Positions 8,796 to 36,184 of a DNA stretch of 64,000 bases are shown piece after piece. Source of the DNA: Salipiger abyssi. Lineage in GTDB: Bacteria; Pseudomonadota; Alphaproteobacteria; Rhodobacterales; Rhodobacteraceae. Under the pieces are notes generated by a model. The model saw only the letters and a program-made list of their open reading frames with translations, searched no databases and was not told where the DNA came from. The stretch is from contig NZ_JAEKIS010000003.1 of assembly GCF_017311415.1 (NCBI RefSeq), positions 248,001 to 312,000 on the forward strand. Direction: 5' to 3'. The position numbers were made by a program, and so were the translations under genes. How positions within the stretch are numbered: position 1 is the stretch's first letter; each line of letters opens with the position of its first letter.

Positions 8796-8873
8796 GGGGC
8801 AGCATCCCGTTGGTTTTCCAGGGTAATATCTGTCCCAATTTTGCCGTCGCGAGGTGTTGTAGCGGAGAATGAG

Positions 8874-14131: not shown

Positions 14132-14171
14132 CATGGTTTGCGGTCAATATGACCCGACACAGGAGATCCGC

Positions 14172-19488: not shown

Positions 19489-19535
19489 GGCTGGCGTTCG
19501 GTTCGCATCTTCATCCCCGAACACGAGGAAAAACC

Positions 19536-21056: not shown

Positions 21057-21058
21057 TC

Positions 21059-22297
21059 ATGCCGACGCAGACGCAAGAGACTGCCTGTTTCCGGCCCGCC
21101 GAGCGCATCGCCACGCTCGGCGTGTCGGAAATCCTGGCCATCGGGGCGCGTGCGGCAGAGCTGCGCGCCATGGGCCGCGACATCATCACACTGGGTGCGG
21201 GCGAGCCGGATTTCGACACGCCCGACCCTATCAAGAAGGCTGCATGGGAGGCGATGCAGCGCGGCGAAACCAAATACACGCCGCTGACCGGCACGCCTGC
21301 GCTGAAGGAGGCGATCATCCGCAAGTTCCAGCGCGAGAACGGTTTGGACTATCGGCCATCGGAAATCATCGCCTGCGCCGGTGCCAAGCAGGTGATCTAC
21401 AATGCGATGATGGCCACGCTGAATCCGGGCGACGAGGTGATCATACCGACGCCCTACTGGGTCACCTATTCCGATATCGTGGAACTGTGTGGCGCTGTGC
21501 CGGTGTTGGTGCCGTGTTCCGCCGATCAGGGATTCCGACTGACCGCCGCGCAGCTGAAGGCGGCGATCACGCCCAAGACCCGCTGGTTGATGCTGAACTC
21601 TCCCTCGAACCCTTCTGGTGCGGCCTATGCCGAGGCGCATCTGCGCCCGCTTCTGGAGGTGTTGCTGGCGGCGCCGCACGTCTGGCTGATGGTCGACGAT
21701 ATGTACGAACACATCGTCTATGACGGATTCCGCCATGTGACGGCGGCTGCGGTCGAACCCCGGATCAAGGAGCGGACCCTGACGATCAACGGGGTGTCCA
21801 AAGCCTATGCCATGACCGGCTGGCGTCTTGGCTATGCCGGCGGGCCGGAAGCGCTGATCCAGGGTATGAGCGTGATCCAGAGCCAGTCCACTTCCGGCGC
21901 CAGTTCGATCAGCCAGGCGGCAGCCATTGCCGCGCTCGATGGTCCGCAGGGCTTTCTGGCGGACCGCGCGGAGGCGTTCCGGCAGCGACGGGATACGGTC
22001 GTCGCGGCGCTGAATGCGGTTCCCGGCCTCTCCTGCCGTAGCCCGGAAGGTGCCTTTTACGCCTTTCCCGAGTGCAAGGGGCTCATTGGGCGGCGCAGGC
22101 CCGAGGGGCAGGCGTTGCGCAGCGACCGGGATGTCTGCGCCTGGCTGATGGAGGCCGCCGGTGTCGCCGTGGTTCCGGGCTCCGCCTTTGGTCTTCCGGG
22201 ACACTTCCGGGTTTCCTATGCCACCTCGACAGCGACGCTGAACGCGGCGCTGACACGGATCCACGAGGCCTGCGAGACGCTGGAGGCGGTAGGGTAG
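21059..22297 (+). CDS. Class I aminotransferase, probable 2-aminoadipate aminotransferase
   Basis: A PLP-dependent fold-type I enzyme of 412 residues, closest in character to AatA-type aspartate aminotransferases (subgroup Ib). It shows LGAGEPDFDTPDPIKKAAW, YTPLTGTPALKEAI, NSPSNPSG and the PLP-lysine segment INGVSKAYAMTGWRLGYAG near residue 248, with the carboxylate-binding Arg in HFRVSYATS near the end. Only two bases separate it from the ALDH7 gene. From that context the reaction is 2-aminoadipate to 2-oxoadipate, feeding HglS. The motifs alone would also allow aspartate. It converges on the FAD oxidoreductase operon. Confidence 0.82.
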   Translation: MPTQTQETACFRPAERIATLGVSEILAIGARAAELRAMGRDIITLGAGEPDFDTPDPIKKAAWEAMQRGETKYTPLTGTPALKEAIIRKFQRENGLDYRPSEIIACAGAKQVIYNAMMATLNPGDEVIIPTPYWVTYSDIVELCGAVPVLVPCSADQGFRLTAAQLKAAITPKTRWLMLNSPSNPSGAAYAEAHLRPLLEVLLAAPHVWLMVDDMYEHIVYDGFRHVTAAAVEPRIKERTLTINGVSKAYAMTGWRLGYAGGPEALIQGMSVIQSQSTSGASSISQAAAIAALDGPQGFLADRAEAFRQRRDTVVAALNAVPGLSCRSPEGAFYAFPECKGLIGRRRPEGQALRSDRDVCAWLMEAAGVAVVPGSAFGLPGHFRVSYATSTATLNAALTRIHEACETLEAVG

Positions 22298-22326: not shown

Positions 22327-23493
22327 TCAGGCCGGCTGATCGAACTCCATCCTGATCTTGTCCGACACCTCGGCGCTCTTGCCGAAGCGGTCGATGCCGT
22401 AGCCCTTTAGATCGACCGGAGACGCCTCGCCCCGCACCAGCGCGGCGAGGCTCTCGCCCAGGGCCGGCGCGATCTGAAAACCGCCTCCGCTGCCGCCGAA
22501 GGCGTGAAACAGTCCCGGGAGTGTGGCGCTCGGGCCGATCACCGGCAGCATGTCAGGCAGATAGCCCTCGACCCCCGACCAGACCCGGATGATCTCGGCC
22601 CGCGTCAGCATCGGCACGCTTTCGGCCAGTGCACGCATGCCCCGGAGGGTTTTCTCCGGCGGCACGTAGGTGAACTCTCCCGAGACCAGAGAGCGGGTGC
22701 GCGGATAGCCCGAAAAGATGACATTGCCGCGCGGGATCTGCCGTACGATGACGTCTCCCTCGACCATGTGCAGCGATGGATGCAGGCGATATGGCAGCGG
22801 TTCGGTGACGAATTGCGGAGGCCCGGCGCTGAACATCGGCACCGTTTCGCCGGCCTGCGCGGCCAGCGCCCCGGCCCAGGCACCGGCGGCGTTGACGAGT
22901 TTCGCCGCCGCGAAGTGACGGCCATCCGCGGTGGTCACGGCAAAGCCCCGGCTGCCATGCTCGAACCGCGCGACCTCGCACCCCTCGACCACCGTTCCGC
23001 CGTAACGGAGCAGCGCCCTTGCGACAGGCGGCGTGCTGAGCCGCGGGTTGGCGACGGCGCTGCGCGGGCTGAAGGCGGCAAGCCGGATGCCGGGCGCGAG
23101 AAACGGGAACCTGTCATACAGCCTGGCACCCTCCATAAGCTGGGAGTCGATGCCGAAACGGCCGGCGGTCTCCACCTCCTTGCGCAGCTGGGCTTCGCCC
23201 CGATCGGTCCGGGCAAAATAGAGATGACCGGTACGGTCGATATCGCAGGTTTCGCCCGTGAGCCGCACATAGCTCTCCCACAGTTCCTGCGCCCGGATCG
23301 ACAGCGGGTATTGGCGGGCCGAACGGCCGTGCAGCCTAAGATTGCCGAAATTGGTTGCCGAGGCCTGCGCACCGACCTGTCCGCGCTCCAGCAGGGTCAC
23401 CTTGAGGCCCGCGCGCGCCAGAAAAAGCCCGGTAAAGGCGCCGAAGAGCCCGCCGCCGATCACGATCACATCGCTTGTCGTCGTTTCGCTCAC
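22327..23493 (-). CDS. DAO-family FAD subunit of a three-component amine dehydrogenase
   Basis: A 388-residue flavoprotein with an N-terminal FAD site, VIVIGGGLFGAFTGLFLARA, and a D-amino-acid-oxidase fold ending in PVIGPSATLPGLFHAFGGSG. This type forms the catalytic beta subunit of multimeric dehydrogenases such as hydrogen cyanide synthase HcnC, opine oxidases and D-hydroxyproline dehydrogenase. The GTG start at 23493 overlaps the previous stop as GTGA, indicating translational coupling. The alpha and [2Fe-2S] subunits are encoded directly upstream. The substrate is an amine or secondary amino acid not identifiable from sequence. Pipecolate is a tempting guess given the neighbouring lysine genes, but shared operators point to the IclR regulon. 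Confidence 0.85.
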   Translation of the reverse strand: MSETTTSDVIVIGGGLFGAFTGLFLARAGLKVTLLERGQVGAQASATNFGNLRLHGRSARQYPLSIRAQELWESYVRLTGETCDIDRTGHLYFARTDRGEAQLRKEVETAGRFGIDSQLMEGARLYDRFPFLAPGIRLAAFSPRSAVANPRLSTPPVARALLRYGGTVVEGCEVARFEHGSRGFAVTTADGRHFAAAKLVNAAGAWAGALAAQAGETVPMFSAGPPQFVTEPLPYRLHPSLHMVEGDVIVRQIPRGNVIFSGYPRTRSLVSGEFTYVPPEKTLRGMRALAESVPMLTRAEIIRVWSGVEGYLPDMLPVIGPSATLPGLFHAFGGSGGGFQIAPALGESLAALVRGEASPVDLKGYGIDRFGKSAEVSDKIRMEFDQPA

Positions 23494-24887
23494 GCCCTCT
23501 GCTCCGCGCCCTCTGTGTCGGCAACCAGCGGGATCGGCCGGACCGGCGCCTGTGCCCGCAGTCGGCCCGGCGTCTCTCCGGCGGCCGATGCGACGATTTC
23601 CGCAAGGGCAGGACCGCAGAACCGGCCCTGGCAGCGACCCATGCCGCAACGGGTGATGGATTTTACCCGGTTGATCTCGACAGGCCCCACCGGTGCGGCC
23701 AGTGTCGCGCGGATCTCGCCGGCGGTGACCCGCTCGCAACGGCAGATCGGTGTCGCGTCGGGAAGTTCGGCGACGGTTTCCGCAGGCCAACGGAAGGCGC
23801 CTGTCATGGCCCGCTGAAAATCCAGCTGCGCTTTGAGCCGTCGCCGGCCCCGCCGCAGCAGACGTGCCGGAATTTGGCGCCCGAGGCTCGCCAGAAGGCT
23901 TTGCGCGGCGAGGCTTCCGGCGGCGTCCGCCGCCTGCGCGCCGCCGATGCGGGCGCTGTCTCCGGCGAGCCAGAGCGTCTCTCCGGCCCGCCCCATCGCG
24001 TCGGTGCGGGCGAACCACTGACGAAAGTCGGGATCGAACCGGAACTCTGCCCCTGCGAGCTCGGCCAGCTGCGTTTCCGCACGCAGCCCGTGCCCCATCG
24101 CGACCGCATCCGCCGCGACGACCGTCTCCCGCCCCTTGCGGGTGACATAGCGCAGCCGTTCCACGCGACCGTCTCCCTCGATTGCGCGGATCGTGCCGCC
24201 CGAGAGCATGGCGACCCCGCCGCGTCGCAGCTCCGCCATCAGCGCCAGCCCCTCCATGGCCGTGCGCGGGGCGTGGCGCAGCATTGCCGGAAAGGCCCGC
24301 AGCTTGGCGGCCATGGGAGTCGTGTCCAGAACGGTGAGGTCGCGATGCCCGAGCCGGAGATACTGTGCGGCGGCGAGATAGAGCAGTGGCGAAGAGCCGG
24401 CGAACACCACCTTGCGCCCGATGAAGCTCGCATGGCGCTTCACGGCCACCTGAGATCCGCCGAGCGTGAACACGCCCGGCAGCGTCCAGCCCGGCACCGG
24501 CATGATCCTGTCGGTGGCGCCCACCGCTATCACCAGATGTGTGTAAGGCTGGCCGACGAAGCCGTCCGGACCCAACAGTTCCAGCTGGTTGTCATGGCAG
24601 GCCCAAACCAGCGTGCCGGGCCGGTAGTCGCATTTTGCCAGTATGGCGTTCTCGGTGTCTTCCCGCCGTGCCATGGCGTCCGCCCCTTGGCCGTAGAGCG
24701 CCGCGCGATACGGCTCGCTCAGCGGCGACAGACGCCGTGTGCCTTGCCCGCCCGGCAGGGTGGCCTCTTCCAGAACGATGGGCCGCAGGCCCGCCTGAAC
24801 CAGCACGCGGGTGGCTGCCAGACCGGCGGGGCCGGCGCCGACGATGGCGACGATCGGTTCGCCGCCCATCTCAGGTCTCGTCGTCAT
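23490..24887 (-). CDS. NAD(P)/FAD oxidoreductase subunit with BFD [2Fe-2S] tail
   Basis: A 465-residue alpha subunit of the three-component dehydrogenase (HcnB/OoxA-like). The FAD site is IVAIVGAGPAGLAATRVL near the N-terminus, and a second nucleotide-binding region follows near residues 150-180 (KVVFAGSSPLLYLAAAQYL). The C-terminal BFD-like [2Fe-2S] domain carries ICRCERVTAGEIR and CGMGRCQGRFCGP. It overlaps the small ferredoxin-like gene by 17 bases if it starts at ATG 24887; an alternative ATG at 24869 lies just past that stop. It passes electrons from the FAD beta subunit, probably to the respiratory chain. Confidence 0.87.
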   Translation of the reverse strand: MTTRPEMGGEPIVAIVGAGPAGLAATRVLVQAGLRPIVLEEATLPGGQGTRRLSPLSEPYRAALYGQGADAMARREDTENAILAKCDYRPGTLVWACHDNQLELLGPDGFVGQPYTHLVIAVGATDRIMPVPGWTLPGVFTLGGSQVAVKRHASFIGRKVVFAGSSPLLYLAAAQYLRLGHRDLTVLDTTPMAAKLRAFPAMLRHAPRTAMEGLALMAELRRGGVAMLSGGTIRAIEGDGRVERLRYVTRKGRETVVAADAVAMGHGLRAETQLAELAGAEFRFDPDFRQWFARTDAMGRAGETLWLAGDSARIGGAQAADAAGSLAAQSLLASLGRQIPARLLRRGRRRLKAQLDFQRAMTGAFRWPAETVAELPDATPICRCERVTAGEIRATLAAPVGPVEINRVKSITRCGMGRCQGRFCGPALAEIVASAAGETPGRLRAQAPVRPIPLVADTEGAEQRA

Positions 24888-25182
24888 AGGGCCGCGAGCG
24901 CAGGCGCTGGCCGTCGGTCACTTCGGTCATGCAGCCGCGCAACCGGCGGCCCCGCTCGTCCCACATCGTACAGTCCTGACAGCTTCCCATCAGGCAGAAC
25001 CCTGCCCGTGCGGCGCCGTCGAACTCGGATGTGCCGCAGGGAAGGCCCGCCGCCAGTATCGCGGCGAGTATCGTGTCGCCCGTCCGCGCCGAGACTCCGA
25101 CCCCGTCGAATGCGAAGCGCACCGGGCGTGGGGTTCCGGGCGATATGGGGTGGAAAAGCGGGGTAGGGTCTATTTTGGGCAT
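24871..25182 (-). CDS. [2Fe-2S] small subunit (HcnA-like)
   Basis: A Fer2_4-type ferredoxin domain of 103 residues. Cysteine ligands are visible in GLPCGTSEF, GFCLMGSCQDCTMW and LRGCMTEV. This is the small subunit of opine oxidase/hydroxyproline dehydrogenase-type complexes. ATG 25182 is chosen; a GTG at 25194 adds four residues. No Shine-Dalgarno sequence precedes it. The predicted -10 box and start point fall so close to the ATG that the message may be leaderless. It is first gene of the operon and directly downstream of an IclR-type operator. Confidence 0.82.
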   Translation of the reverse strand: MPKIDPTPLFHPISPGTPRPVRFAFDGVGVSARTGDTILAAILAAGLPCGTSEFDGAARAGFCLMGSCQDCTMWDERGRRLRGCMTEVTDGQRLRSRPYDDET

Positions 25183-25186
25183 AGTT

Positions 25187-25216
25187 AATATCACAATGCG
25201 ATAGAAGCTATGTCAA
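25187..25216 (-). promoter_or_regulatory. Promoter with IclR-type operator, oxidoreductase operon
   Basis: Read on the minus strand, TTGACA (25211-25216) is followed after 17 bases by TGATAT (25188-25193), right before the ATG at 25182. Inside the spacer is the imperfect 13-base palindrome ATCACAATGCGAT (25190-25202, plus-strand reading). The surrounding 22 bases (25187-25208) match 17 of 22 positions of the site at 26220-26241 in front of the divergent hydratase operon. A repressor bound here would block RNA polymerase. Binding by the adjacent IclR protein is inferred. Confidence 0.6.
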
Positions 25217-25283
25217 TATGGGGCGTCGTGCTTGTTCCTCTGCGAGGGCGCCGTTTTGGCCGGCCGCTTAGGCAAGAGGCCTG

Positions 25284-26072
25284 TCAGGAGAAGGAGATCG
25301 ACCGTGCCGCTGCGAGGATCATCGGCGCGAAGACCATGGCGAGCTGTTCGGGGCTGTAGCGCAGGGTCGAGACCGCCAGTGACACCGCCCCGATGACCTG
25401 CCCCAAAGAGCCCAGCACCGGCGCCGCGATAGAGGCGTCGGCGTGATAGAGCTCTTCCAGCGCGGTTGCATAGCCCTTGAGCCGGGCCTCCTCAATGATC
25501 GCGGTGAGCTTGCCGATATCGGTCTCGGTGTTCTGCGTATGCGCGCGGATGTCCGACGCTTCCAGTATGGCCGCGACCTCCTCTGCCGGCAGACGGGACA
25601 GAATCGCGCGCCCTGGCGCCGTGCAGTAGGCGGGCAGGCGTGTACCGATGGTCACGTCGGTGTGCAGCACATGGCGGCTGAGGAAGCGCGAAATGAAAAC
25701 GATCTCGGTCCCGTCGAGCAGCGTCAGGTTCACCGTCTCTTCGGTTTCCTTGCTCAGGTGCTGCAACACCGGCATCGCACGGTCCACCAGCCGTGAAGTA
25801 CGGGTGAAGTGATGCGCGAGGTTGAGCGTCTTGACCGACAGCCGGAACTGTCGCGTACGCCCGTCCTTTTCGAGATAACCCAGCGTTTCCAGCGTATGGG
25901 CAAAGCGCTGCGCGCCGCTCAGATCCATGCCGGTCTGTTCGGCGATGTCCGACAGGGTCATCTCCGGATGACGCGAATCGAACGCCTCCAGCACGCGGAA
26001 CGCCTTGGCGACGGACTGCACCATGAGCGGGTCCGACCGCTTCGGAGATTTCTTCTTTTCGTCTGTCGTCAC
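25284..26072 (-). CDS. IclR family transcriptional regulator
   Basis: A 262-residue regulator with an N-terminal winged helix (residues about 15-80; SVAKAFRVLEAFDSRHPEMT, then LSDIAEQTGMDLSGAQRFAH) and a C-terminal IclR effector-binding domain (PGRAILSRLPAEEV, GYATALEELYHADASIAAPV). The start is GTG 26072 after GGAGAGG. The gene lies between two operons whose promoters carry near-identical palindromes, making it the obvious common regulator: the three-subunit dehydrogenase operon on its downstream side and the hydratase/ABC/ligase operon diverging from it. Many IclR members are repressors released by a pathway substrate; the mode here is unknown. Confidence 0.9.
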   Translation of the reverse strand: MTTDEKKKSPKRSDPLMVQSVAKAFRVLEAFDSRHPEMTLSDIAEQTGMDLSGAQRFAHTLETLGYLEKDGRTRQFRLSVKTLNLAHHFTRTSRLVDRAMPVLQHLSKETEETVNLTLLDGTEIVFISRFLSRHVLHTDVTIGTRLPAYCTAPGRAILSRLPAEEVAAILEASDIRAHTQNTETDIGKLTAIIEEARLKGYATALEELYHADASIAAPVLGSLGQVIGAVSLAVSTLRYSPEQLAMVFAPMILAAARSISFS

Positions 26073-26181
26073 CTGACCTCTCCATTCATCAACACTGTAC
26101 GCGCCGCCTTTACCTGTGCCCGGCAGTTCGCCCTGTTTTCAGCAAAACCGGCAAGAATTCCAGCAGACACCCGCAAGACGA

Positions 26182-26241
26182 TTGACAAAAGAAACAACGA
26201 CCACCTACATTCAATAATAACTATTACAATGCAATGGTAGC
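26182..26241 (+). promoter_or_regulatory. Promoter and IclR-type operator, hydratase/ABC operon
   Basis: TTGACA (26182-26187) and TACATT (26206-26211) with an 18-base spacer make a plausible sigma-70 promoter. Just after the expected start point is ATTACAATGCAAT (26223-26235), an imperfect 13-base palindrome with 10 of 13 symmetric positions. The 22 bases at 26220-26241 match the site at 25187-25208 at 17 positions. The site also lies in the iclR promoter region, so autoregulation is likely. Confidence 0.6.
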
Positions 26242-26242
26242 C

Positions 26243-27007
26243 ATGGAAAACTTCATCCTTACCGAAAAAGCCGGCAACGTTCTGACCATCACGCTGAACC
26301 GCCCCGAAAAGATGAACGCGTGGAACGCAGCGATGCGGGATATGCTCATCGAGGCGCTCGACATGGCGGAGGCGGATGACGAGGTGCGTGCCATCATCCT
26401 GACCGGGGCCGGTGACCGGGCGTTCGGGGCCGGTCAGGATCTGAGCGAAAGCAAGACCTTCGATGCAGATCGTGCCGAAGTATGGATGGGCGAGTGGAAG
26501 AAGCTCTACGCCTGTTTTCGCGATGGCTCGAAGCCCATCGTGGCGGCACTGAACGGGGTGGCGGCGGGCTCTGCCTTCCAGGTGGCGCTGCTGTGCGACC
26601 TGCGTGTCGCGCATCCCGGCGTGCGCATGGGGCAGCCCGAGATCCTGTCGGGCATCCCCACCGTCACCGGCAACTGGATCATGCGCGGCATGATCGGCAT
26701 CGCCCGCACAATCGACCTGACCCTCACCGGCCGCATGCTCGACGCCAAGGAGGCGCATGAGTGGGGTCTTATCAGCCGGTTGGTGGACGAGGGCCGGGTG
26801 ATGTCCGCCGCGATGGAGCTGGCGCAGGAGCTGGCATCCAAGCCGCCGGAGGCCATGCGGCTCAACCGCCAGCGGATCAAGGAAGTCACACAGGAAGGCT
26901 ATGACGATGCCATGGCCGCCGGTATCCGCATCCAGCTCGAAGCCTATGGTATCGGCGAACCGCAGCGGATGATGGAAGAATTCTTCGCCAAGCGCGCCAA
27001 GGCCTGA
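26243..27007 (+). CDS. Enoyl-CoA hydratase/isomerase family protein
   Basis: A 254-residue crotonase-fold protein (LTITLNRPEKMNAWNAAMRD, ILTGAGDRAFGAGQDL, PEILSGIPTVTG). Compared with classical enoyl-CoA hydratase, the first catalytic glutamate (GGGCEL) is replaced by glutamine (GSAFQV), while the second, in GQPEIL, is kept. A water-addition mechanism needing both is therefore doubtful, and an isomerase, hydrolase or CaiD-like activity is possible. ATG 26243 is used; an in-frame ATG at 26234 lies inside the operator. Neither has a ribosome site. It heads an IclR-regulated operon with an importer and an acyl-CoA ligase. Confidence 0.85.
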   Translation: MENFILTEKAGNVLTITLNRPEKMNAWNAAMRDMLIEALDMAEADDEVRAIILTGAGDRAFGAGQDLSESKTFDADRAEVWMGEWKKLYACFRDGSKPIVAALNGVAAGSAFQVALLCDLRVAHPGVRMGQPEILSGIPTVTGNWIMRGMIGIARTIDLTLTGRMLDAKEAHEWGLISRLVDEGRVMSAAMELAQELASKPPEAMRLNRQRIKEVTQEGYDDAMAAGIRIQLEAYGIGEPQRMMEEFFAKRAKA

Positions 27008-27042
27008 CCGGTTCGGCGCCGGATCGAAGAAGACCGCGGTTT

Positions 27043-27058
27043 CCGCCCCTTCGGGCGG
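27043..27058 (+). other. Small intercistronic hairpin
   Basis: CCGCCC and GGGCGG around a four-base loop CTTC lie between the hydratase and binding-protein genes, without a T-run. It may stabilise or process the transcript ahead of the highly expressed binding-protein gene. Low certainty. Confidence 0.3.
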
Positions 27059-27124
27059 GTGCCGCACCCAAACAAAAATCCAAACGCAAAAAGCGTCAAA
27101 CGTCCAACAGAGGTAATTCCACCG

Positions 27125-28186
27125 ATGAAAAAGATCTTCTCCCCGCAGATGAGCCGTCGCGGCCTTCTCGCCACCGGCGCCGCGGCACTGGCGACACCCA
27201 TGCTGGGCCGCCGTGCAAACGCGCAGACCACATCGCTGACCGTGGCCGATCCGGGCGGCCCCTTTGCAGACGGGTATCGCAAGGCCTTCTACGAGCCTTT
27301 TAGCGCCGAGACCGGCATCGAGATCGTCCCCGTGGCCCGTGACGCGGAGCCCACCGCGCAGTTCAAGTCCATCGTCGAAACCGGCAGCTATATCTGGGAT
27401 GTCTGCACCCTGACCCTGTCGGCGCGGCTGATCCTCGAACAAGAGGACCTGCTGGATGATATCGATGTCGATCCCGCGCTCACCGCCAGCATGATGCCGG
27501 GCTCGGTGCATTCGAACTTCCTCGGCACCGATGTCTACGCCACGATCTCGGCCTTCAACACCGAAAGCATGGAGACAGGGCCGTCGAACTGGGCGGATTT
27601 CTGGGATGTCGATACCTTCCCGGGCCGCCGCGCGCTGCGCCGCAATCCCATCGACACGCTGGAGCAGGCGCTGATGGCCGACGGTGTCGCGCCCGAGGAT
27701 CTCTATCCGCTCGATGTCGACCGCGCCTTTGCCAAGCTCGACGAGATCAAGGACGACATCGATGTGTGGTGGACCGGCGGCGCCCAGACGTCGCAGCTGC
27801 TTCAGAGCGGCGAGGTCGATATGCTGTCGGGCTGGAACGCCCGCCTTCAGTCGGCCATCGACACCGGTGCCCCGGCAAAGCTGGTCTGGAACCAGGGGCT
27901 TTATTCGATCGAGGGCTGGGGTCTGCCGAAGGGTGGCCCGAATGCCGATGCCGCGCGCCAGTTCGTCGCCTTCTGCGCCCGTCCCGAGCAGCAGGCGCTG
28001 TTCACCGACGACCTGTCCTACGGTCCCACCAACCTCGACGCCTACGATCATATCTCCGAAGAGCGTGCTCCGGTGCTGACCACCGCGCCCGCGAACCTAG
28101 AGGGCATGGCGCTGGCCGATGAGGTGTGGTGGCAGCAGAACCGCGCCGAGGTGACCGAGCGCTTCAATCTCTGGCTGCTGGTGTAA
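27125..28186 (+). CDS. Polyamine-type ABC transporter substrate-binding protein
   Basis: A 353-residue extracellular binding protein of the spermidine/putrescine (PotD/PotF, SBP_bac_8-like) family. The N-terminus MSRRGLLATGAAALATPMLG with a twin arginine suggests Tat export, followed by a cleavage-like ANAQ. The mature part has WADFWDVDTFPGRRALRRNP and GWGLPKGGPNADAARQFVAF, standard for the family. ATG 27125 follows AGAGG. The ATPase and fused permease genes follow. An amine or cationic acid is a plausible ligand, consistent with the amine dehydrogenase under the same regulator. Specificity is not established. Confidence 0.87.
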   Translation: MKKIFSPQMSRRGLLATGAAALATPMLGRRANAQTTSLTVADPGGPFADGYRKAFYEPFSAETGIEIVPVARDAEPTAQFKSIVETGSYIWDVCTLTLSARLILEQEDLLDDIDVDPALTASMMPGSVHSNFLGTDVYATISAFNTESMETGPSNWADFWDVDTFPGRRALRRNPIDTLEQALMADGVAPEDLYPLDVDRAFAKLDEIKDDIDVWWTGGAQTSQLLQSGEVDMLSGWNARLQSAIDTGAPAKLVWNQGLYSIEGWGLPKGGPNADAARQFVAFCARPEQQALFTDDLSYGPTNLDAYDHISEERAPVLTTAPANLEGMALADEVWWQQNRAEVTERFNLWLLV

Positions 28187-28375
28187 CCGCGTCCCCGCCG
28201 GCGGGTCGGTTCCGATGCCCGCCGGTGGGATCCTCCGTGCGATCCCTTGCAAGATCCGCCGCGCCGCACAAGGCTGCGCCGGTCTGTTGCGCAGGCGCCC
28301 GACGGCGCCGCCGTGCGACGATCTCGGACAAGACCCACCCGCGCCAGCGCGCGACCCGACAGGGACATGATCACC

Positions 28376-29482
28376 ATGAATACCCCCGCCACTTCCGCCG
28401 CCGCGGCGTCTCCGGCAGTCAAGATCCGGATCGACGGCCTGTCAAAGACCTATGGCACCTTCACTGCGCTCGAACCGACGACCCTCGATGTGCAGCGCGG
28501 CGAGTTTCTTACCCTGCTCGGGCCGTCGGGCTCGGGCAAGACCACGCTGCTCCAGATGGTGTCTGGGCTCACCCCGGCGACCTCGGGGCGGTTGGCGGTC
28601 GATGGCGAGGACTGGACGCACCGGCCCGTGCATGACCGTAATATGGGGCTGGTGTTTCAGCACTATGCGCTGTTCCCGCACATGACCGTTGAGGAAAACG
28701 TCGCCTTCCCGCTGCGCATGCGCAAGCAGCCGGCCGAGCAGATTAAGCGGGCTGTCGCGGAAACCCTTGAAAAGGTCCAACTCGACCGTTTTGCCCATCG
28801 CTTTCCGCGCGAATTGTCGGGGGGCCAGCAGCAGCGTGTGGCGCTCGCCCGCTGCTTTGTCTTCAGGCCCGAGATCATCTTGATGGACGAACCGCTGGGG
28901 GCGCTCGACAAGGCGCTGCGCGAGACCATGCAGCTCGAGATTCGGCGCCTGCACCGCGAATTCGGCACCACCCTGATCTATGTGACCCACGATCAGGAAG
29001 AGGCGCTGGTGATGTCCGACCGCATCTGTGTGATGAATCACGCCAAGGTCGAACAACTCGGCACGCCGACCCAGATCTATTCGGATCCAGAGACCATTTT
29101 TGCGGCCACCTTCATCGGCCATTCCAATCTGCTGGAGGGTACTCTTGCGGGCACCGATGCGGCGGGAAACACACTGATAAAGACGCCCGCGGGCACCTTT
29201 GCCGGGCGGATGGGGGCTCGTGACGCAGGCGCGGAGAAACATGCACTGATCGTGCGGCCCGAGCGCGTATCGCTGGGGGCGGCCACGGGACCGGGCATGA
29301 ACGAACTGCGCGCCACATTGCGCGACGTGGTCTATATCGGGTCGGACAACCGGTTGATGCTGACCCTGCCGGACGGCTCGGAAGTCACCTTGCGTCAGGA
29401 TCCGGGGGCCGAGACCGATATGGCGATCGGCCAGGAGATCGCCGTACACTGGCCCATCGCCGCCGGGCGGGTGGTGTCATGA
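28376..29482 (+). CDS. Polyamine-type ABC transporter ATPase (PotA-like)
   Basis: A 368-residue ATPase. Walker A is GPSGSGKTT, the signature LSGGQQQRVALARC, Walker B ILMDEPLGALD, and the switch His is in YVTHDQEEALVMSD. A C-terminal TOBE_2 domain (HALIVRPERVSLG, then VVYIGSDNRLMLTLPDG) is typical of PotA/FbpC types. ATG 28376 is chosen because AGGGA sits ten bases upstream; ATG 28367 is too close to it. The stop overlaps the permease ATG by four bases. Confidence 0.9.
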   Translation: MNTPATSAAAASPAVKIRIDGLSKTYGTFTALEPTTLDVQRGEFLTLLGPSGSGKTTLLQMVSGLTPATSGRLAVDGEDWTHRPVHDRNMGLVFQHYALFPHMTVEENVAFPLRMRKQPAEQIKRAVAETLEKVQLDRFAHRFPRELSGGQQQRVALARCFVFRPEIILMDEPLGALDKALRETMQLEIRRLHREFGTTLIYVTHDQEEALVMSDRICVMNHAKVEQLGTPTQIYSDPETIFAATFIGHSNLLEGTLAGTDAAGNTLIKTPAGTFAGRMGARDAGAEKHALIVRPERVSLGAATGPGMNELRATLRDVVYIGSDNRLMLTLPDGSEVTLRQDPGAETDMAIGQEIAVHWPIAAGRVVS

Positions 29483-31251
29483 GCGCCGCCGCCGACACGC
29501 CGGGATCCGCCGCCGGTGGCGCCCTGTCGCGGCTGAAGTTGGGACCGCTCTGGCTCGCGGCGCCGGCGCTGGCCTTCGTTGGCGTCTTTCTGCTGCTGCC
29601 CATGCTGCGCCTGATCGGGCTGAGCCTTACGGGCGGCGACACCCCCGGCCTCACGCTGGAGCACTACCAGGATCTGGCCAAGACGCCGGTCTATCTGCGG
29701 ATCCTGTGGATCACCTTCCGGATTTCGATCCTGACCGCGTTCTTCTCGGTCGTTCTCGGTTATCCGGTGGCCGCGTGGCTGGCTGGGCTGCCCCACAACC
29801 GGCGCAACAAGTGGCTGTTTCTGGTGCTTTTGCCGTTCTGGACGTCCTATCTCGTCAAGACCTTCGCCTGGATGATCATGCTGGGCGACCGGGGCCTGTT
29901 CAACTCGATCCTCACCGGGACCGGGCTGGTCGGGGACTCGCTCGACCTGATGTATAACGAGCTGGGCGTAATCATCGGCATGGTGCATGCGATGATGCCG
30001 CTTGCGATCCTGACGATGGTGCCGGTGATGACCGGCATCGACCGGCGGCTGCCGCTCGCGGCGGGCAGCCTTGGCGCGAAGCGGTCGCAGCGGTTCTGGC
30101 TGATCGAGTTCCCTCTGGCCATGCCCGGGGTCGCCGCGGGCGGGTTGCTGACCTTCATCACCTCGCTTGGCTTCTTTATCGTGCCGGCCTATCTCGGGGG
30201 GCGGGGCCAGACCATGCTGGCGCAGATCATCATCATGCAGGTGCAGGAGCTGGTGAACTGGGCGTTTGCGGCGGTGCTGTCGGTGATGCTGGTGGTCGCG
30301 GCGCTGGCGGCGATCTGGATTTACGACCAGTTTTTTGGGCTGTCCTCGCTCACCCAGGCGAGCACCGCCGACGGCAAGGGCTCGAAGATCGGCGGCCGCT
30401 GGCTGCGCCGCGCGGGGCAGTCGGTGCTGGCGGGGCTCGCATGGATCTGCGCGCCCTTCGACCGGCTGGGCGACCGTGGCGATGACGCGCCGAAGCCGGT
30501 CCGCACGGTATATCTCGCGATCCTGTTCCTGTTCCTGCTGGCGCCTGCGATGATCGTGCTGCCGCTGGCCTTCACCGCGGAACAGACGCTGGCTTTCCCG
30601 CCGCCGGCCTATTCCACCCGCTGGTTCGGCGAGTATTTCGGTTCGCAGATCTGGATCTCGGCCACCATCCGCAGCTTCGGCGTGGCCTTTGCCACCGCGA
30701 TCCTGGCGACGGTGCTGGGCGGCATGGCGGCGCTGGCGCTGGCAAGATCCGACAGCCGCCTCGGCAAACTCGTGTTCGGCCTTATGCTCGCGCCGATGAT
30801 CGTGCCGCGCATCGTCATCGCCGTGGGGCTGTTCTATCTCATGGCGCAGATGGGCCTCGTGGCCTCCAATATCGGCCTGATCATCGGCCACACATTGCTG
30901 GCGATCCCCTTCACCTTCATCGCCATCGGCGCGGTGCTCAAGGGCTATGACTGGCGCCTCGATCAGGCGGCGGCGACGCTGGGCGCGGGACGGCTCACCG
31001 TGTTGCGGCTGATCACCATGCCGCTTCTGCGCGGCGGCATCATTTCCGCGGCACTCTTCGCCTTCGTGACCAGTTTCGACGAGCTGACCATCGCATTGTT
31101 CATTTCGGGAGGTCTGAAATCTACACTGCCCAAGCAGATGTGGGACGACATGTACCTTCAGCTGAACCCGACATTGGCGGCGGTGTCCGTCCTGGTTCTG
31201 GTCATCGTGACCGTGATCCTGCTGCTGGCGCAACGTGTACAGAAATCCTGA
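29479..31251 (+). CDS. Fused PotB-PotC-type ABC permease
   Basis: A 590-residue protein containing two complete BPD_transp_1 permease domains in one chain. Residues about 20-285 carry the first EAA-like loop IEFPLAMPGVAAGG and residues about 335-590 the second, ITMPLLRGGIISAALFAF. They are joined by a polar linker around 290-330 with a further amphipathic stretch. In most polyamine importers PotB and PotC are separate proteins. I see no internal stop or frameshift, so this is a genuine fusion. ATGA overlap with the ATPase gene suggests coupled translation. Confidence 0.88.
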   Translation: MSAAADTPGSAAGGALSRLKLGPLWLAAPALAFVGVFLLLPMLRLIGLSLTGGDTPGLTLEHYQDLAKTPVYLRILWITFRISILTAFFSVVLGYPVAAWLAGLPHNRRNKWLFLVLLPFWTSYLVKTFAWMIMLGDRGLFNSILTGTGLVGDSLDLMYNELGVIIGMVHAMMPLAILTMVPVMTGIDRRLPLAAGSLGAKRSQRFWLIEFPLAMPGVAAGGLLTFITSLGFFIVPAYLGGRGQTMLAQIIIMQVQELVNWAFAAVLSVMLVVAALAAIWIYDQFFGLSSLTQASTADGKGSKIGGRWLRRAGQSVLAGLAWICAPFDRLGDRGDDAPKPVRTVYLAILFLFLLAPAMIVLPLAFTAEQTLAFPPPAYSTRWFGEYFGSQIWISATIRSFGVAFATAILATVLGGMAALALARSDSRLGKLVFGLMLAPMIVPRIVIAVGLFYLMAQMGLVASNIGLIIGHTLLAIPFTFIAIGAVLKGYDWRLDQAAATLGAGRLTVLRLITMPLLRGGIISAALFAFVTSFDELTIALFISGGLKSTLPKQMWDDMYLQLNPTLAAVSVLVLVIVTVILLLAQRVQKS

Positions 31252-31313
31252 CCCTTCCTTCGCCGCGCCTCGTGCATAGCGGCGCGCTCTCCTGTTCCAC
31301 TTTGAGGAAAAGA

Positions 31314-32837
31314 ATGAATATCAAAGGCTTGGCAAAGAGCTTTATCGAGCAGGCCGAAAAGACGCCGACCCGCGTCTTTGCCCGCACCACCGATGGCACC
31401 GAGATCAGCTTTCGCGCGCTCTCGGATGCCGCGGATGCGATGATCGCCTGGCTGGCCGGGAATGGCGTACGTCCCGGCGATACCGTGGCGGTGATGACAC
31501 GCAACAGCCCCGCCACTCTGGCGCTGATCCACGGGCTGCTGCGGGCGGGCATGATCTGGGTGCCGGTGAACCCGGCACTTGTCGGTGACGGTCTGGCCCA
31601 CGCCCTGCGTCTCGTCGAAGCGGCCGTGGTGGTGTGCGATCCCGAGCTCGAGGGCACCGTGACCGACTGCGAGGTGACGCCGCGCGAGGGTATCCTGGCG
31701 CTGCACAGCTCAGACCTGCCTGCCGCCCCTGCCATCCCTCCCAGCTATGACATTCCGCCCCCGCAGGCGCTGGCCGCGATCATGTTCACCTCGGGCACGA
31801 CCGGCCCGGCGAAGGGCGTGCGGGTCACCCAGACGATGCTCGAAATCGCCGCCCGCGGTGTCGAGGAGGTCGGCGATCTGCAACCGGCCGACAATCTGTT
31901 CATGTGGGAGCCCTTTTACCATGTGGGCGGGGCGCAGGTCATCGTTCTGCCGATCCTCTGCGATGTCACTCTGACGATTGCCGAGCGGTTCTCGGCCAGC
32001 CGGTTCTGGCAACAGGTTTCGGAGGCGGGCTGCACGCATATCCATCATCTGGGCGGCATCCTTCAGATCCTGCTGAAGCAGCCCGCCTCGGATCTCGACC
32101 GCGATCACCGCGTGCGGGTGGCCTGGGGTGGTGGTTGCGCGGCCACGGTCTGGCGCGAATTCGAGACCCGTTTCGGTATTAAGATTACCGAGTGCTACGG
32201 GCAGACGGAGGCCTCCTCGATCAGCTGCGCCAATACCGAAGGGGTCGTGGGCGCCATCGGTCACCCGCTGCCCTGGTTCGACATCGAGGTAAAAACCGAA
32301 ACCGGCCGGATCCTCGGGCCGGGCGAGGGGCGAGGCGAGCTGGTCATCACGTCGCGTATCGACGGTGCGATCTTTGCCGGCTACCACAATGCGCCAGAAG
32401 CGACCGCCAAGGCGCTGCGCGAGGACGGGTTCCACACCGGCGACACGGGATCATGGGGCGAGGACGGCATGCTGCGGTTTCACGGCCGCCTCGGCGACAG
32501 CGTGCGCTGCAAGGGTGAGAACGTGTCGGCGCATGAGGTCGAAAGCGTTGCCAACCGTCATCCCGAGATCGAGGAAACCGCCATGGTCGGTGTTCCCGCC
32601 GAGATCGGAGAGTACGACATTCAGCTCTTTATTCGCCCCACGCCGGGCACCACGCCCGATCCCGAGGCGATCAGCGCCTGGCTTTCGGACAGGCTCGCGC
32701 CCTATCAGCAGCCGCGGTTCATCGCCTTCGTTGATGAATTCCCCAAGACCCCCAGCCAGCGCATCCGCAAGCATCTCCTGCCGGCGGCCCCGGACCGCTG
32801 GGAACGCAGCTCCACCAGAAAAGCCCCTGTCTCATGA
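31314..32837 (+). CDS. Acyl-CoA ligase, AMP-binding family
   Basis: A 507-residue ANL-superfamily enzyme that activates an acid with ATP to an acyl-adenylate and then to a CoA thioester. The phosphate loop is MFTSGTTGPAKGV, the motif ECYGQTEASSIS aligns with A5, and TGDTGSWGEDGMLRFHGR with A7/A8. In the C-terminal lid, the motif normally ending Gly-Lys reads FPKTPSQRIRKHLL, so the adenylation lysine is Arg or displaced. Overall it resembles carnitine/crotonobetaine-CoA ligases, a weak hint only. ATG 31314 follows GAGGAAAAG. It lies 62 bases behind the permease and overlaps the next gene by four bases. Confidence 0.87.
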   Translation: MNIKGLAKSFIEQAEKTPTRVFARTTDGTEISFRALSDAADAMIAWLAGNGVRPGDTVAVMTRNSPATLALIHGLLRAGMIWVPVNPALVGDGLAHALRLVEAAVVVCDPELEGTVTDCEVTPREGILALHSSDLPAAPAIPPSYDIPPPQALAAIMFTSGTTGPAKGVRVTQTMLEIAARGVEEVGDLQPADNLFMWEPFYHVGGAQVIVLPILCDVTLTIAERFSASRFWQQVSEAGCTHIHHLGGILQILLKQPASDLDRDHRVRVAWGGGCAATVWREFETRFGIKITECYGQTEASSISCANTEGVVGAIGHPLPWFDIEVKTETGRILGPGEGRGELVITSRIDGAIFAGYHNAPEATAKALREDGFHTGDTGSWGEDGMLRFHGRLGDSVRCKGENVSAHEVESVANRHPEIEETAMVGVPAEIGEYDIQLFIRPTPGTTPDPEAISAWLSDRLAPYQQPRFIAFVDEFPKTPSQRIRKHLLPAAPDRWERSSTRKAPVS

Positions 32838-33913
32838 CCACCGATGTTTTGATCACCGGCACCGGAATGTTCGCCGGACGTATCGCGCTCGATATCGCGG
32901 CCACCGCCAAGGCCCCGGTGACGGTCGTCATCGCCGGGCGCAATCTGGCGCGGCTGCAATGGCTCCAGACCGCCGGCAACGCCCGGGCCGCCATGTTCGG
33001 CACGCCCGTCCGGTTTCGCGCGCACCGGACCGACCTCATGGAAGACGGCGCCAGCGAAGCGCTTCTGTCAGAGCTGAAACCGCGTCTCGTGGTCCAGGCC
33101 GCGTCGATCCAGACCTCTTCGGTGATCTCTGACAAGGGCTCGCGCTGGACCCAGCTCGTGGCCGAGGGCGGGTTGAGCGCCACGGCGGTGTTTCAGGCGC
33201 TGATCTCGTCGCGCATGGCTGCGGCGATCAGCAAGCTCTGCCCCGGTACGCCACTGATCAACTGTTCCTTCCCGGACGTGGTCAACGGCATGATCGCCGC
33301 CATGGGGCATGACGTGCTTTGCGGCACCGGCAATGTCGCCATTCTGTCCAATGTCTTTCGCGGCTCACCGAACCGCCCGAAGGGCAGGCTGCGCGTGCTG
33401 GCGCATTACCAGTGCCTCAAGCCTTGGCGCCAGCCCCCGAAAGAGCGGACCGGCCCCGCGCCCCGCGTTTTCGCCGACGAGACCGAAATCGCCGATCCCT
33501 TTCTCACCTTTTCCGACTGCAAGCTGACGCCGGAACCCGCCATCGAGATCTCGGGTGCCAGCGGGGTGACCCTGATCCTGGCGCTGTCGGCGGGTCAGCC
33601 ATGGTCCGGTCATGTCCCGGGACCGAACGGTCTGCCCGGGGGCTATCCGGTGACGGTCTCGGAGACCGGCGCAATGTCGCTCGACCTGCCGGCGTCTCTC
33701 GCCGAGGACGCGGCGATCGCCTGGAACGATGCTTTCGAGCATCAGAGCGGGCTTACGGTCTCAGGCGGGGCGGCACGGTACAACGGTCGTCTGGCGGAGC
33801 TGCTGCGCGCCGAGGGCTTTGCCCATGCCGAGGGGTTCGACGTCGTCGATCTCGAAACGGTCTGCGCCGACATGCGCGCCTTGCGGGATCGGCTCCAGGA
33901 CGAGGCGGCCTGA
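32834..33913 (+). CDS. NAD(P)-binding Rossmann protein, saccharopine dehydrogenase-like
   Basis: A 359-residue protein with an N-terminal dinucleotide-binding fold (VLITGTGMFAGRIALDIA) followed by VVIAGRNLARLQWLQ, the pattern of the saccharopine dehydrogenase/trans-enoyl reductase-like Rossmann family. The rest (VVQAASIQTSSVISDKGSRW, INCSFPDVVNGMIAAMG) has no motif I recognise. ATGA overlap with the ligase gene makes it the last gene of the IclR-controlled operon. A role as a dehydrogenase acting after or before CoA activation is inferred. It should not be read as a lysine-pathway saccharopine dehydrogenase. Confidence 0.65.
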   Translation: MTTDVLITGTGMFAGRIALDIAATAKAPVTVVIAGRNLARLQWLQTAGNARAAMFGTPVRFRAHRTDLMEDGASEALLSELKPRLVVQAASIQTSSVISDKGSRWTQLVAEGGLSATAVFQALISSRMAAAISKLCPGTPLINCSFPDVVNGMIAAMGHDVLCGTGNVAILSNVFRGSPNRPKGRLRVLAHYQCLKPWRQPPKERTGPAPRVFADETEIADPFLTFSDCKLTPEPAIEISGASGVTLILALSAGQPWSGHVPGPNGLPGGYPVTVSETGAMSLDLPASLAEDAAIAWNDAFEHQSGLTVSGGAARYNGRLAELLRAEGFAHAEGFDVVDLETVCADMRALRDRLQDEAA

Positions 33914-34072
33914 ACCCAGAGCGCCGCTGGGCACGGAAACGGGCGGTCTGATTGGTCCCGCGCCCAGTCAGAAGCGGAAAATTTTAGCAGATAGGATTGT
34001 CATCTTTAGGTGTCGTTCACCCGATGCGGGCCAAATCCATTCCCAGAACGCCTTGCGAACGGGAACGATGAC

Positions 34073-36184
34073 ATGAGTCTGCGCCTGATGATGTTGAGCG
34101 CCATCGCGCCGCTGCTGGCCCTTGCGCTTTACTTCGCCGGGGCCGAGATCTTTTCACTGGCCGCGCTATCGGAGCGTGAGGCGCGGGTCTCGCGCGTGGC
34201 CGAGGAATCGGAGCGGGTTTCCGACCTCATACACGAGTTGCAGAAGGAGCGGGGCTATTCCGCCGGCTTTACCGCATCTGGCGGCGGCAATTTTCGCGAT
34301 GTGTTGGGCGAGCAGCGGCAGACGACCGATGCGGCCTTCGAAGCGTTTCGCGGTCACACGTCGGAAATCGCCCTCGTGGCGCCGACCGAGATCGCTGACG
34401 CCGGCGCGGGGTTGGCCATGCTCGCAGAACGGCGCGCGTCGATCGACGCGCTGCAACTGACCGTGCCAGAACTGGCGGGCTACTACACTGGTATCATTGA
34501 TCATCTCATGTCGGCGTCGAGCCGCATACGGATCGGCGCGGGCGCCGATCGGGCGGCGGTCTTGATGGAAGCGGTGGAGTTGGTGGCGCTGGCCAAGGAA
34601 AGCGCGGGTCTGGAACGCGCGATGGGTGCGACGGGCCTCGGGGCAGAGCGGTTCCCCGATGCGGTCCACAGGCGCTTTGCCGAGCTTGGTGCCCGGCAGC
34701 GGGCGTTTCTGGCGCAGGCGGGAGCGACGCTGGATAGGCCCGATTTTGCCAAAGAGCTGTCCGCACGTCCCGCCGCGCAGACGATAGAACCGATGCGCGA
34801 GGCGATCGTGGCGCTGCCCTATAGCGGGTCGGCGGCAGGTATCGCAGCGCCAGACTGGTTTGCGGCCTCCACCGCCTGGATCGACGATCTGCGCGCGATC
34901 GAGACGGAACTGACCGAGGAACTGGCGGTGCTTACCGGCGCTGTTGCCGCCCATGCGCAAGGCGCACTTTGGGTGCGGGTCGCGGTGGCGGCCTCGGTCA
35001 TTCTGGCGGTGGCGGCGTTTGCCATCACACAGACAGAGCTGATCACCCGGCGTCTGCGCAAGCTGACCGGGGTGATGAATGATTTCATTCAGGGCCGATT
35101 CGACTCCTGGGTGCCCTATATCAAGGGGCGGGGCGAGATCGGGGCCATGGCGAATTCGGTCTACCGGTTCAAACAGCTGACCCGCGCCGCCACCGAGAAA
35201 AAGGAGGCGGACGAGGCGCGGCTAAACGCCAAGCACCAGCAGGTTGTCGATCTGGTGACAGAGGGGCTCAACGCGCTGGCGCATTCGGACCTGACCCGCT
35301 CCTTCCACGACGAGCTGGCGCCGGAATACGATTCGATCCGCACCGATTTCAACACCGCCACGGCGCGGCTGCGCGACGTGATGCTGACCCTCGCCGATAC
35401 CGTGGGCGAATTGCATGAGCGTTCCGGCGACATGCGCAGCTCCGCCTCGGATCTGGCGGAACGGACCAATACTCAGGTCGAAACCATCGCGCGCACCGCC
35501 GATACGGTCTCTGGCCTCACCGAAACCCTGGAGGAGACCACCGGTTCGCTGAAAGACGCCAAGCTGCTGGCCGACGAGGCCAAGGGCCGCGCCGACCGTT
35601 CCGGTCAGGTGGTGCGCAGCGCGGTGGCGGCGATGGACCGGATCGCCGAATCCTCTGGCCGGATCGCGCAGATCACTACGGTGATCGAAGACATCTCCTT
35701 CCAGACCAACCTTCTGGCGTTGAATGCCGGGGTCGAGGCGGCACGCGCCGGTGAAAGCGGCAAGGGGTTCGCGGTGGTCGCGATGGAGGTGCAGAGCCTG
35801 GCCAGCCGTTCCGCCGACGCAGCGCTCGAGATAAAGGCGCTGATCGAGGAAAGCGCGCGTGAGGTGAAGGGCGGCGTCGATCTGGTGGGCGAAACCGGCG
35901 AGTCGCTGGAGGCGATTCTCGACCAGATCCGCCGCGTCGATCAGGTGCTTTCCGGTGTCAGTGTTGCCGCCGAAAGCCAGAGCCACGAATTGCAGGGGGT
36001 CAATGCCGCGATGCGCAGCCTCAGCACACTGACCGCGCAGAACACCGCTGTGGCCGATGCCAGCCGGGACAGCTCGACCGAGCTCGCGGACCGTGCCCAG
36101 CATCTCGCGCAACTGGTGGCGGAGTTCGATCTGGGACGCGATGACAGAGACACCCCGCCGGCGCGAGCCGAGCGCGCCGCCTGA
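34073..36184 (+). CDS. Methyl-accepting chemotaxis protein with NIT domain
   Basis: A 703-residue chemoreceptor. TM1 is near residues 5-25. A periplasmic NIT-type sensor domain ([20 protein letters not shown]) reaches to about 295 and TM2 ([18 protein letters not shown]) lies near 305-322. HAMP follows to about 390 and the cytoplasmic signalling hairpin contains the conserved tip [23 protein letters not shown] domains were first tied to nitrate/nitrite but also sense other small molecules. The start is ATG 34073. It stands alone between the IclR-controlled operon and choWV, so its ligand may be a substrate of one of them. Confidence 0.9.

Follow-up and report, generated by a model that had tools for sequence, protein, structure and literature searches.

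An IclR-controlled ten-gene module of Salipiger abyssi, most likely directed at a secondary-amine or imino acid

Here we describe ten genes in a 64,000-nucleotide stretch of the Salipiger abyssi genome (assembly GCF_017311415.1, contig NZ_JAEKIS010000003.1, positions 248,001 to 312,000; this whole stretch is called the window, and all coordinates are positions in it). They form two divergent arms, FADbeta-FADalpha-[2Fe-2S]-IclR, with the three subunits of a flavin dehydrogenase, and crotonase-SBP-ATPase-fused permease-CoA ligase-ROSS, where SBP is a periplasmic binding protein, ROSS an orphan Rossmann-type protein, and the crotonase-fold protein is also called ECH. A shared operator and the recurrence of the gene set argue that this conserved, operator-defined catabolic module is real, and its substrate is most likely a zwitterionic secondary-amine or imino acid. 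An earlier note on this DNA had read the genes as an IclR-controlled system for the import, oxidation and CoA activation of an amine. Every gene was found where that note had placed it (Pfam/NCBIfam matches), so that its observation is confirmed, whereas its interpretation is supported in part only. All the enzyme classes are known except ROSS. The combination is undescribed as far as searches of the open-access PMC literature show: no paper on this gene set was found there by title or listing, in keeping with the note's remark that it knew of no such pathway.

The shared operator and the recurrence of the module

Each arm is preceded by a three-box operator, CAATAAnAnTTATTGCATTGCAATAA, of the rough form CAATAA-N3-TTATTG-CAT-TGCAATAA. 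The crotonase-arm operator of the window lies between IclR and ECH (26212-26237, plus strand) and scores 28.8 bits, or 25.7 bits with a matrix built without Rhodobacterales, with an own-genome E of 0.00365; the dehydrogenase-arm operator, before the [2Fe-2S] gene (25188-25213, minus strand), scores 20.9 and 19.5 bits, respectively, with an own-genome E of 0.24. With this held-out matrix (110 sites, no Rhodobacterales loci) the two operators rank first in the 64-kb window, overlapping registers aside, and the next separate place reaches 7.2 bits. The scan of the organism's own genome matched only these two places, 150 of 505 candidates having been scored. Across a further 14 genomes and 6 plasmid records, matches at E≤0.02 fell at the cluster only; five of these 20 genomes and records had no operator match at this threshold.

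The final matrix, which was trained on the regions that it scored, put 64 of the 66 regions of the crotonase arm and 56 of the 59 of the dehydrogenase arm above 15 bits (the L066/L107 region pair being a duplicate). None of 2500 dinucleotide shuffles exceeded this value, 4 of the 2500 exceeded 10 bits, and their maximum was 13.2 bits. An earlier run had given more than 10 bits in 64 of 66 and 57 of 59 regions, respectively, and in none of 2500 mononucleotide shuffles; the change from 57 to 56 stems from the later run, in which the window's own second region had been cut. Among the regions scored, those without a site include L083, L086, L019 and L032.

In the crotonase arm the operator is placed as a repressor site would be: the distance from TTGAC to the operator is 30-32 nt in 58 of 64 crotonase-arm sites where TTGAC was found, a spacing that would let the site cover the presumed -10/start region. 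In the window sequence, a -35-like TTGACA hexamer (26182-26187, plus strand) has its first base 30 nt upstream of the operator start. The regulator gene (25284-26072, minus strand; PF01614, 136.5 bits; PF09339, 62.8 bits) encodes an IclR-family protein, likely a repressor, for which TIGR02431 (PcaR/PcaU/PobR) is the best-scoring model, at 221 bits, its cut-off of 284.75 not being reached. The operator itself consists of three half-sites of alternating direction ahead of the target genes. The earlier note had proposed that shared operators bind both arms into one regulon; a single IclR regulon joining both arms now appears well supported, with sites in both arms that are the sole genome matches among the candidates scored, and with all the E≤0.02 matches elsewhere at the cluster.

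A one-genome-per-species scan found 110 ROSS relatives, and the counts of loci given here rest on the best 80. The order and strands of all ten genes are intact in 50 of these 80 loci, so that the gene set recurs, as the earlier note had suggested checking; ECH, ligase and FADalpha occur together in 59, and FADalpha or FADbeta is present in 68. Half of the 30 loci without the full order (15) are shortened by contig ends. The loci include Roseovarius, Paracoccus, Gemmobacter, Bosea, Microvirga, Chelatococcus, Pseudolabrys, Nitratireductor and Falsochrobactrum, with plasmid-borne copies in Sagittula, Bosea and Chelatococcus. ROSS is scarce within the order, being found in 2 of 196 genomes, this one included. 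The enzymes can be kept though the importer is swapped or missing (L030, L032, L054, L076, L079, L081). Directly behind the module of L025 (11100-20500) lies a second, more distant set of ligase, SBP, crotonase, importer, ligase and IclR, followed by HglS.

Pairwise correlations of protein distance over the 49 full loci are 0.92-0.96 among FADalpha, IclR, crotonase, permease and ligase (FADalpha-ECH 0.94, FADalpha-ligase 0.96) and 0.75-0.86 between ROSS and the other module proteins; the highest value in 200 label permutations per pair was 0.28. The two arms appear to evolve in step, shared species history contributing to the correlation.

Dehydrogenase, importer and CoA enzymes

The three adjacent dehydrogenase genes lie on the minus strand and encode, from their Pfam domains, a DAO-type beta subunit, an FAD and BFD alpha subunit and a small Fer2 gamma subunit. 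FADbeta (22327-23493; PF01266, 219 bits; nearest PDB chain 1y56_B, 97.7 bits) would be the catalytic subunit, and its GTG start codon overlaps the stop of the alpha gene. FADalpha (23490-24887) combines an FAD/NAD(P)-type part (PF07992, 64.8 bits) with a BFD [2Fe-2S] domain (PF04324, 35.9 bits), and the gamma gene (24871-25194, likely ATG start at 25182) encodes the small [2Fe-2S] Fer2_4 protein (PF13510, 77.8 bits). The gamma motif reads C-x4-C-x2-C-x12-C in the window and C-x4-C-x2-C-x11/12-C in 71 of 71 rows. The R-x-W of the beta FMN site is present in the window and in 54 of 71 rows, the 17 misses starting at the cut edge of a locus; the window has the beta GxGxxG, and no such motif was seen in 9 of 71 beta rows or in 9 of 72 alpha rows. 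The alpha subunit of the window carries C-x-C-x29-C-x4-C, and 69 of 72 rows conform when a spacing of x15-35 is allowed. PMC4575208 gives the motifs of the flavin opine dehydrogenases and reports that this class also serves D-hydroxyproline and proline; the predicted enzyme of the window fits this class.

Variants of this arm exist. In L065, L067 and L069, FADbeta lies near ROSS and the alpha and gamma genes are not detectable in the locus. A larger variant is found around the dehydrogenase and ROSS in L083, L085, L086 and L092 (annotated in L083), and adds a second crotonase, an ADP-forming CoA ligase pair, an opposite-strand AMP ligase and a 4HBT thioesterase.

The importer genes, on the plus strand like the rest of their arm, encode the SBP (27125-28186, in an open reading frame (ORF) from 27059 with an ATG at 27125; PF13416, 128 bits), the ABC ATPase (28367-29482, ORF from 28247; PF00005 and PF08402) and a fused PotB/PotC-type permease (29479-31251) with two BPD_transp_1 stretches, PotB-like at residues 31-282 and PotC-like at 340-589. 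The earlier note had called this importer polyamine-type, a label that is doubtful. The ATPase and permeases are of Pot type (the ATPase reaches 347.6 bits with TIGR01187, PotA, and narrowly misses the cut-off of 355.6), and the SBP scores 217 bits with 4i1d. The SBP is nearer to the agropine, mannopine and GABA-sensor binding proteins, with 140-166 bits (agropine permease 6hly, 166 bits), than to chains named spermidine/putrescine-binding, with at most 85.8 bits, or to PotD, with about 39 bits, though a chain titled 'Polyamine', 4eq7, gives 162.6 bits; the PotD model gives 34.7 bits of a cut-off of 582.

The crotonase-fold protein (26234-27007; PF00378, 156 bits) has as its closest PDB match 4kd6 (330 bits), which we take to be a Burkholderia-type structure. 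Its residues Gln116 and Glu136 are found in 89 of 89 rows, comprising 87 distinct sequences. In the hydratases, which are the next PDB matches, the position of Gln116 holds Glu: of the canonical catalytic pair (Glu144 and Glu164 in the rat enzyme) the first is replaced by Gln116 and the second is kept as Glu136. The loss of the first catalytic Glu argues against plain hydration, so that ECH is unlikely to be a plain hydratase, and the 'hydratase' label of the earlier note is doubtful. Carboxymethylproline synthase was considered as its closest kin and set aside, no such chain being present among 20 PDB sequences at E≤1e-30.

The AMP-forming acyl-CoA ligase (31314-32837, ORF from 31140; PF00501, 210.5 bits; PF13193, 53.8 bits) has an ATP-dependent acyl-CoA ligase as best NCBIfam model, at 346.5 bits of a cut-off of 722, and scores 206 bits of a cut-off of 651 against the crotonobetaine/carnitine-CoA ligase model. 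Its top PDB match is gramicidin synthase A; amino acid activation of the nonribosomal peptide synthetase type was set aside, CoA-ligase domains being present. ROSS (32834-33913) matched no Pfam or NCBIfam model at E 0.001. Its relatives show a weak PF03435 (Sacchrp_dh_NADP) likeness in 7 of 53 at E≤1 (best E 0.0047) and a faint epimerase likeness in 6 of 53, and a profile comparison with the NAD-binding part of saccharopine dehydrogenase was weak (probability 28%, 75 columns). These matches are too weak to place ROSS among the saccharopine or opine dehydrogenases (best PDB profile match E 0.038). In Chelatococcus sp. CO-6 (L014, 13977-15073) ROSS is annotated as two overlapping ORFs, from a frameshift or a sequencing error.

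The inserted island and the reduced clusters

The unit delimited by the earlier note is too small, as the module is part of a larger insert of about 20.9 kb (about 13075 to 33975) that also holds a 2-aminoadipate lower route, which the note had overlooked. This insert splits a choline importer, whose choX (12037-13020) and choWV (36238-38072) are 23.2 kb apart with the insert and a gene for a methyl-accepting chemotaxis protein (MCP) between them. The choX-choW spacing in 20 genus members is 114-253 bases in 16, about 2.3 kb in G813 and G811 and 23.2 kb here, and one has no choX. In G813, the closest relative examined, the window's positions 13074 and 33976 are contiguous (identity 88% on one side and 95% on the other), and the MCP region accounts for the 2.3 kb between choX and choW; because G813 is contiguous across it, the extra ~20.9 kb is the insert content. 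A 10-base direct repeat, TCCCGCGCCC, is present at both ends of the insert (13058 and 33956), and G813 has one diverged copy. Nothing stood out in the G+C content or 4-mer use of the insert. These junctions suggest that the insert arrived as one piece in this genome; its retention here with deletion in G813 and G811 is the less economical and less likely course.

Besides the ten-gene module the insert holds two LysR genes and four plus-strand genes of the lower route. They encode a candidate YdiJ-like D-2-hydroxyglutarate dehydrogenase (14133-17003; NF049975 as best model, 815.1 bits, cut-off of 1350 not reached), the 2-oxoadipate dioxygenase/decarboxylase HglS (18103-19488, ORF from 17665; NF049974, 727.8 bits, above the cut-off of 550), the L-piperidine-6-carboxylate dehydrogenase AmaB (19203-21056, domain from about 19626; NF050084, 790.7 bits, above the cut-off of 730) and a class I aminotransferase (20861-22297, domain from about 21086; NF004769, 547.6 bits, cut-off of 617 not reached), presumed to act on 2-aminoadipate. 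The insert's AmaB is the only one of this genome at E 1e-100; the only match in G813 at E 1e-150 is 66% identical and lies elsewhere in the genome, and G811 has none at E 1e-150.

The link between AmaB and the module is not limited to this genome. AmaB occurs within 6 of the 80 module loci at tblastn E 1e-60 (L017, L018, L023, L050, L074, L093), and is also found beside the module on the Sagittula plasmid (L011); in Afifella it lies about 11 kb from the operators. About 0.36 of 80 loci would be expected by chance (binomial P about 2e-6, or 5e-4 counting 4 lineages) if each 4.7 Mb genome has one AmaB, a simplification of both copy number and genome size. Since AmaB is nearly everywhere (26 of the 28 genomes searched), only this close linkage, and not co-occurrence in the genome, is used as evidence. 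Ten of the 80 loci carry OCD-type genes, which often have a DadA-like gene next to them. The AmaB and OCD/DadA linkage is consistent with D-lysine/piperideine/pipecolate chemistry, and is no proof that the dehydrogenase makes piperideine-6-carboxylate. A replacement of the dehydrogenase by AmaA in L093 was considered and dropped, as this contig ends beside ROSS and AmaA-like genes are found elsewhere in 26 of 28 genomes (E 1e-60, all below the model cut-off).

Two neighbouring regions are mentioned for completeness. The MCP gene (34010-36184) encodes a NIT sensor domain and, in relatives, forms part of the cho locus. Since the Azospirillum ligase also has an MCP behind it, membership in the module was considered here, and was rejected because the sensors differ (NIT versus 4HB) and the MCP region of G813 follows choX without the module. 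Window positions 8800-10255 hold a low-G+C ORF (8841-10142, third-position G+C 0.46) without Pfam or NCBIfam match, and G813 has about 0.8 kb of other sequence at this place.

The two arms are not always joined. The earlier note had considered that arms routinely found apart would speak against its interpretation, and the outcome is mixed: they are joined in the 50 loci with full order, and the ±10-14 kb fetched around an ECH match has no dehydrogenase arm in any of 15 plasmid regions, chosen from 37 such records for being outside the ROSS set. An unselected phylum sample of 398 genomes gave 4 with ECH, 2 of them without the dehydrogenase arm. The ECH/ligase/importer arm stands without dehydrogenase in Azospirillum, Caballeronia, Paraburkholderia, Rhizobium, Mesorhizobium, Ensifer, Shinella and others, and most of these clusters carry the operator. 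The layout is IclR|crotonase-SBP-ATPase-permease-ligase in Azospirillum and crotonase-ligase-ProC-OCD in Rhizobium and Mesorhizobium; in Ensifer, ProC lies behind the ligase, at the place held by ROSS in the window. As the CoA arm occurs without dehydrogenase, in rhizobia with ProC or OCD instead, crotonase, ligase and IclR form the core of the system, and the imine/amine redox enzymes its exchangeable partners. The linear pathway of import, oxidation and CoA activation drawn by the earlier note is unsupported in that form.

In Rhizobium and Mesorhizobium, operator-like sites also precede genes for a DoeB-related deacylase, binding proteins and caprolactamase-like proteins, possible further members of the regulon; extra sites lie at 9019, 10447 and 17573 in L099 and at 5747, 10008 and 17582 in L100.

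Proposed function and relation to known systems

We propose a dedicated, IclR-repressed module that would import and oxidise a zwitterionic secondary-amine or imino acid and drain it into piperideine-6-carboxylate, the likeliest substrate being a piperidine- or lysine-derived imino acid or an N-substituted relative; our confidence in this proposal is evenly balanced. The ABC importer would take up the zwitterionic acid (a secondary amine or cyclic imino acid), and binding of the inducer to IclR would open both arms. The alpha-beta-gamma dehydrogenase would oxidise the C-N bond to an imine, with electrons passing to the respiratory chain, and ROSS could be an NAD(P)-linked partner on the imine/amine side, where rhizobial relatives have ProC- and OCD-type imine reductases behind the ligase instead. 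The ligase would form a CoA thioester, which the Gln116/Glu136 crotonase may rearrange or cleave by isomerisation, epimerisation or C-C/C-N cleavage rather than by simple hydration. These CoA steps could come before or after oxidation. The nitrogen-bearing product would drain through AmaB, the aminotransferase, HglS and the YdiJ-like enzyme of this genome, from piperideine-6-carboxylate via 2-aminoadipate, 2-oxoadipate and D-2-hydroxyglutarate to 2-oxoglutarate. A bolder form of the proposal, which we consider doubtful, puts the CoA step on the amino or imino acid itself, by epimerisation of the alpha-carbon or by a retro-Mannich/aza-Michael cleavage to an imine and a short acyl-CoA, the imine then passing to the dehydrogenase, ROSS, ProC/OCD-type reductases or AmaB. 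If true, cyclic imino acid metabolism would have a CoA-dependent entry route that has not been described before.

Several observations weigh against this proposal. The dehydrogenase-arm operator of the window has no TTGAC element at the usual distance in the sequence, and the AmaB and HglS genes of the insert have no operator copy, with LysR genes of their own next to them. In most module loci no AmaB lies within 10 kb of the ROSS gene, and many of the same genomes have an AmaB away from the module. Since this genome encodes, at another place, a candidate AmaA-like pipecolate oxidase (407.7 bits, cut-off of 600 not reached), the dehydrogenase need not be its sole enzyme for pipecolate. The minimal clusters of Azospirillum and Caballeronia consist of crotonase, ligase, importer and IclR only, so that the CoA arm must be able to work without dehydrogenase and ROSS. 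Finally, the x15-20 spacing printed for the alpha subunit in PMC4575208 differs from the x29 found here.

This autonomy of the CoA arm would also fit two parallel uses of one inducer, in which importer, ligase and crotonase would degrade one acid completely while dehydrogenase and ROSS handle a second, related amine under the common regulator, with no linear pathway. The unit of crotonase, ligase, importer, IclR and operator indeed stands alone in Azospirillum (L097, L116), Caballeronia (L098, L112) and P. phymatum (L111); conversely, dehydrogenase and ROSS occur without ECH and ligase in L075, L080 and L090, FADbeta occurs alone with ROSS in L067 and L069, and ROSS co-varies less with the remaining module proteins than these do among themselves. 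We nevertheless think such a division of labour unlikely, though worth keeping in mind, in view of the intact order in 50 of the 80 loci and the joint presence of ECH, ligase and FADalpha in 59; moreover, L075, L080 and L090 are in part truncated by contig ends or adjacent to a second locus.

The dehydrogenase and the binding protein would also suit an opine system, in which a flavin opine dehydrogenase would split an imported N-(carboxyalkyl) amino acid, yielding an amino acid and an oxo acid, and the released acid would be processed by ligase and crotonase. To our knowledge, the known opine products need no CoA ligase, and the window has neither an opine synthase nor a Ti-plasmid context. 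The SBP is close to the agropine- and mannopine-binding proteins, and in some clusters peptide-type importers replace this one (by ORF calling, a 544-aa SBP and two permeases in Chelativorans, L076). A distant ROSS relative (28.8%) near such a dehydrogenase on a Rhizobium tumorigenes plasmid is a weak link. Subunit make-up and motifs match the flavin opine dehydrogenase, but the same class also serves D-hydroxyproline and proline (PMC4575208), and an opine substrate seems improbable to us. We regard as very improbable a betaine- or carnitine-type route in which a carnitine- or crotonobetaine-like acid would be handled by ligase and crotonase in the manner of CaiC and CaiD, and the amine product demethylated by the flavin enzyme. 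The ligase does match the ATP-dependent acyl-CoA ligase and crotonobetaine/carnitine-CoA ligase models, and the SBP family includes GABA-type binders; however, both ligase scores are far under their cut-offs, the crotonase lacks the first catalytic Glu, and the association with AmaB, HglS, OCD and ProC points to cyclic imines.

Whatever its substrate, the module is a compact regulon with its own operator, with 50 loci in marine and soil Alphaproteobacteria and a reduced form in Azospirillum, rhizobia and Burkholderiaceae. It brings a Rossmann family that went unrecognised by the Pfam and NCBIfam models and a crotonase subfamily in which the change from Glu to Gln is fixed. The operator could be used as a reporter for finding the inducer, and the presence of AmaB and HglS in the insert narrows the substrate search to lysine- or piperidine-type acids, a directly testable question.

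Each part of the module resembles a known system and departs from it. The dehydrogenase shares subunit domains, gamma motif and the beta R-x-W and GxGxxG motifs with the OdhABC opine, D-hydroxyproline and archaeal L-proline dehydrogenases as given in PMC4575208, but differs from them in its alpha spacing and in being tied to an IclR/CoA-ligase/crotonase regulon. The importer resembles PotABCD in its Pot-type ATPase and permeases, with the permeases fused here, the PotA cut-off narrowly missed and a low PotD score, whereas its SBP scores well against the agropine/mannopine/GABA-type importers. IclR proteins are known to have three-box sites whose half-sites alternate in direction (PMC8222616); the likeness to PcaU/PobR-kind operators lies in these alternating half-sites and in TIGR02431 as the regulator's best model, but theirs are GTNCG-type boxes, whereas here they are A/T-rich, CAATAA/TTATTG, and placed like a repressor site. 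In DmdD, according to PMC3660561, hydration uses the two Glu as base and acid, and thioester hydrolysis requires the second; ECH has in common with enoyl-CoA hydratase and DmdD the fold and the second Glu, the first being Gln here. Lastly, the AmaB and HglS of the insert, both above their cut-offs, recall the pipecolate route of P. putida and Phaeobacter with AmaB, HglS and YdiJ (for Phaeobacter, PMC5653290), but here no AmaA adjoins them and a three-subunit dehydrogenase with CoA enzymes is found instead.

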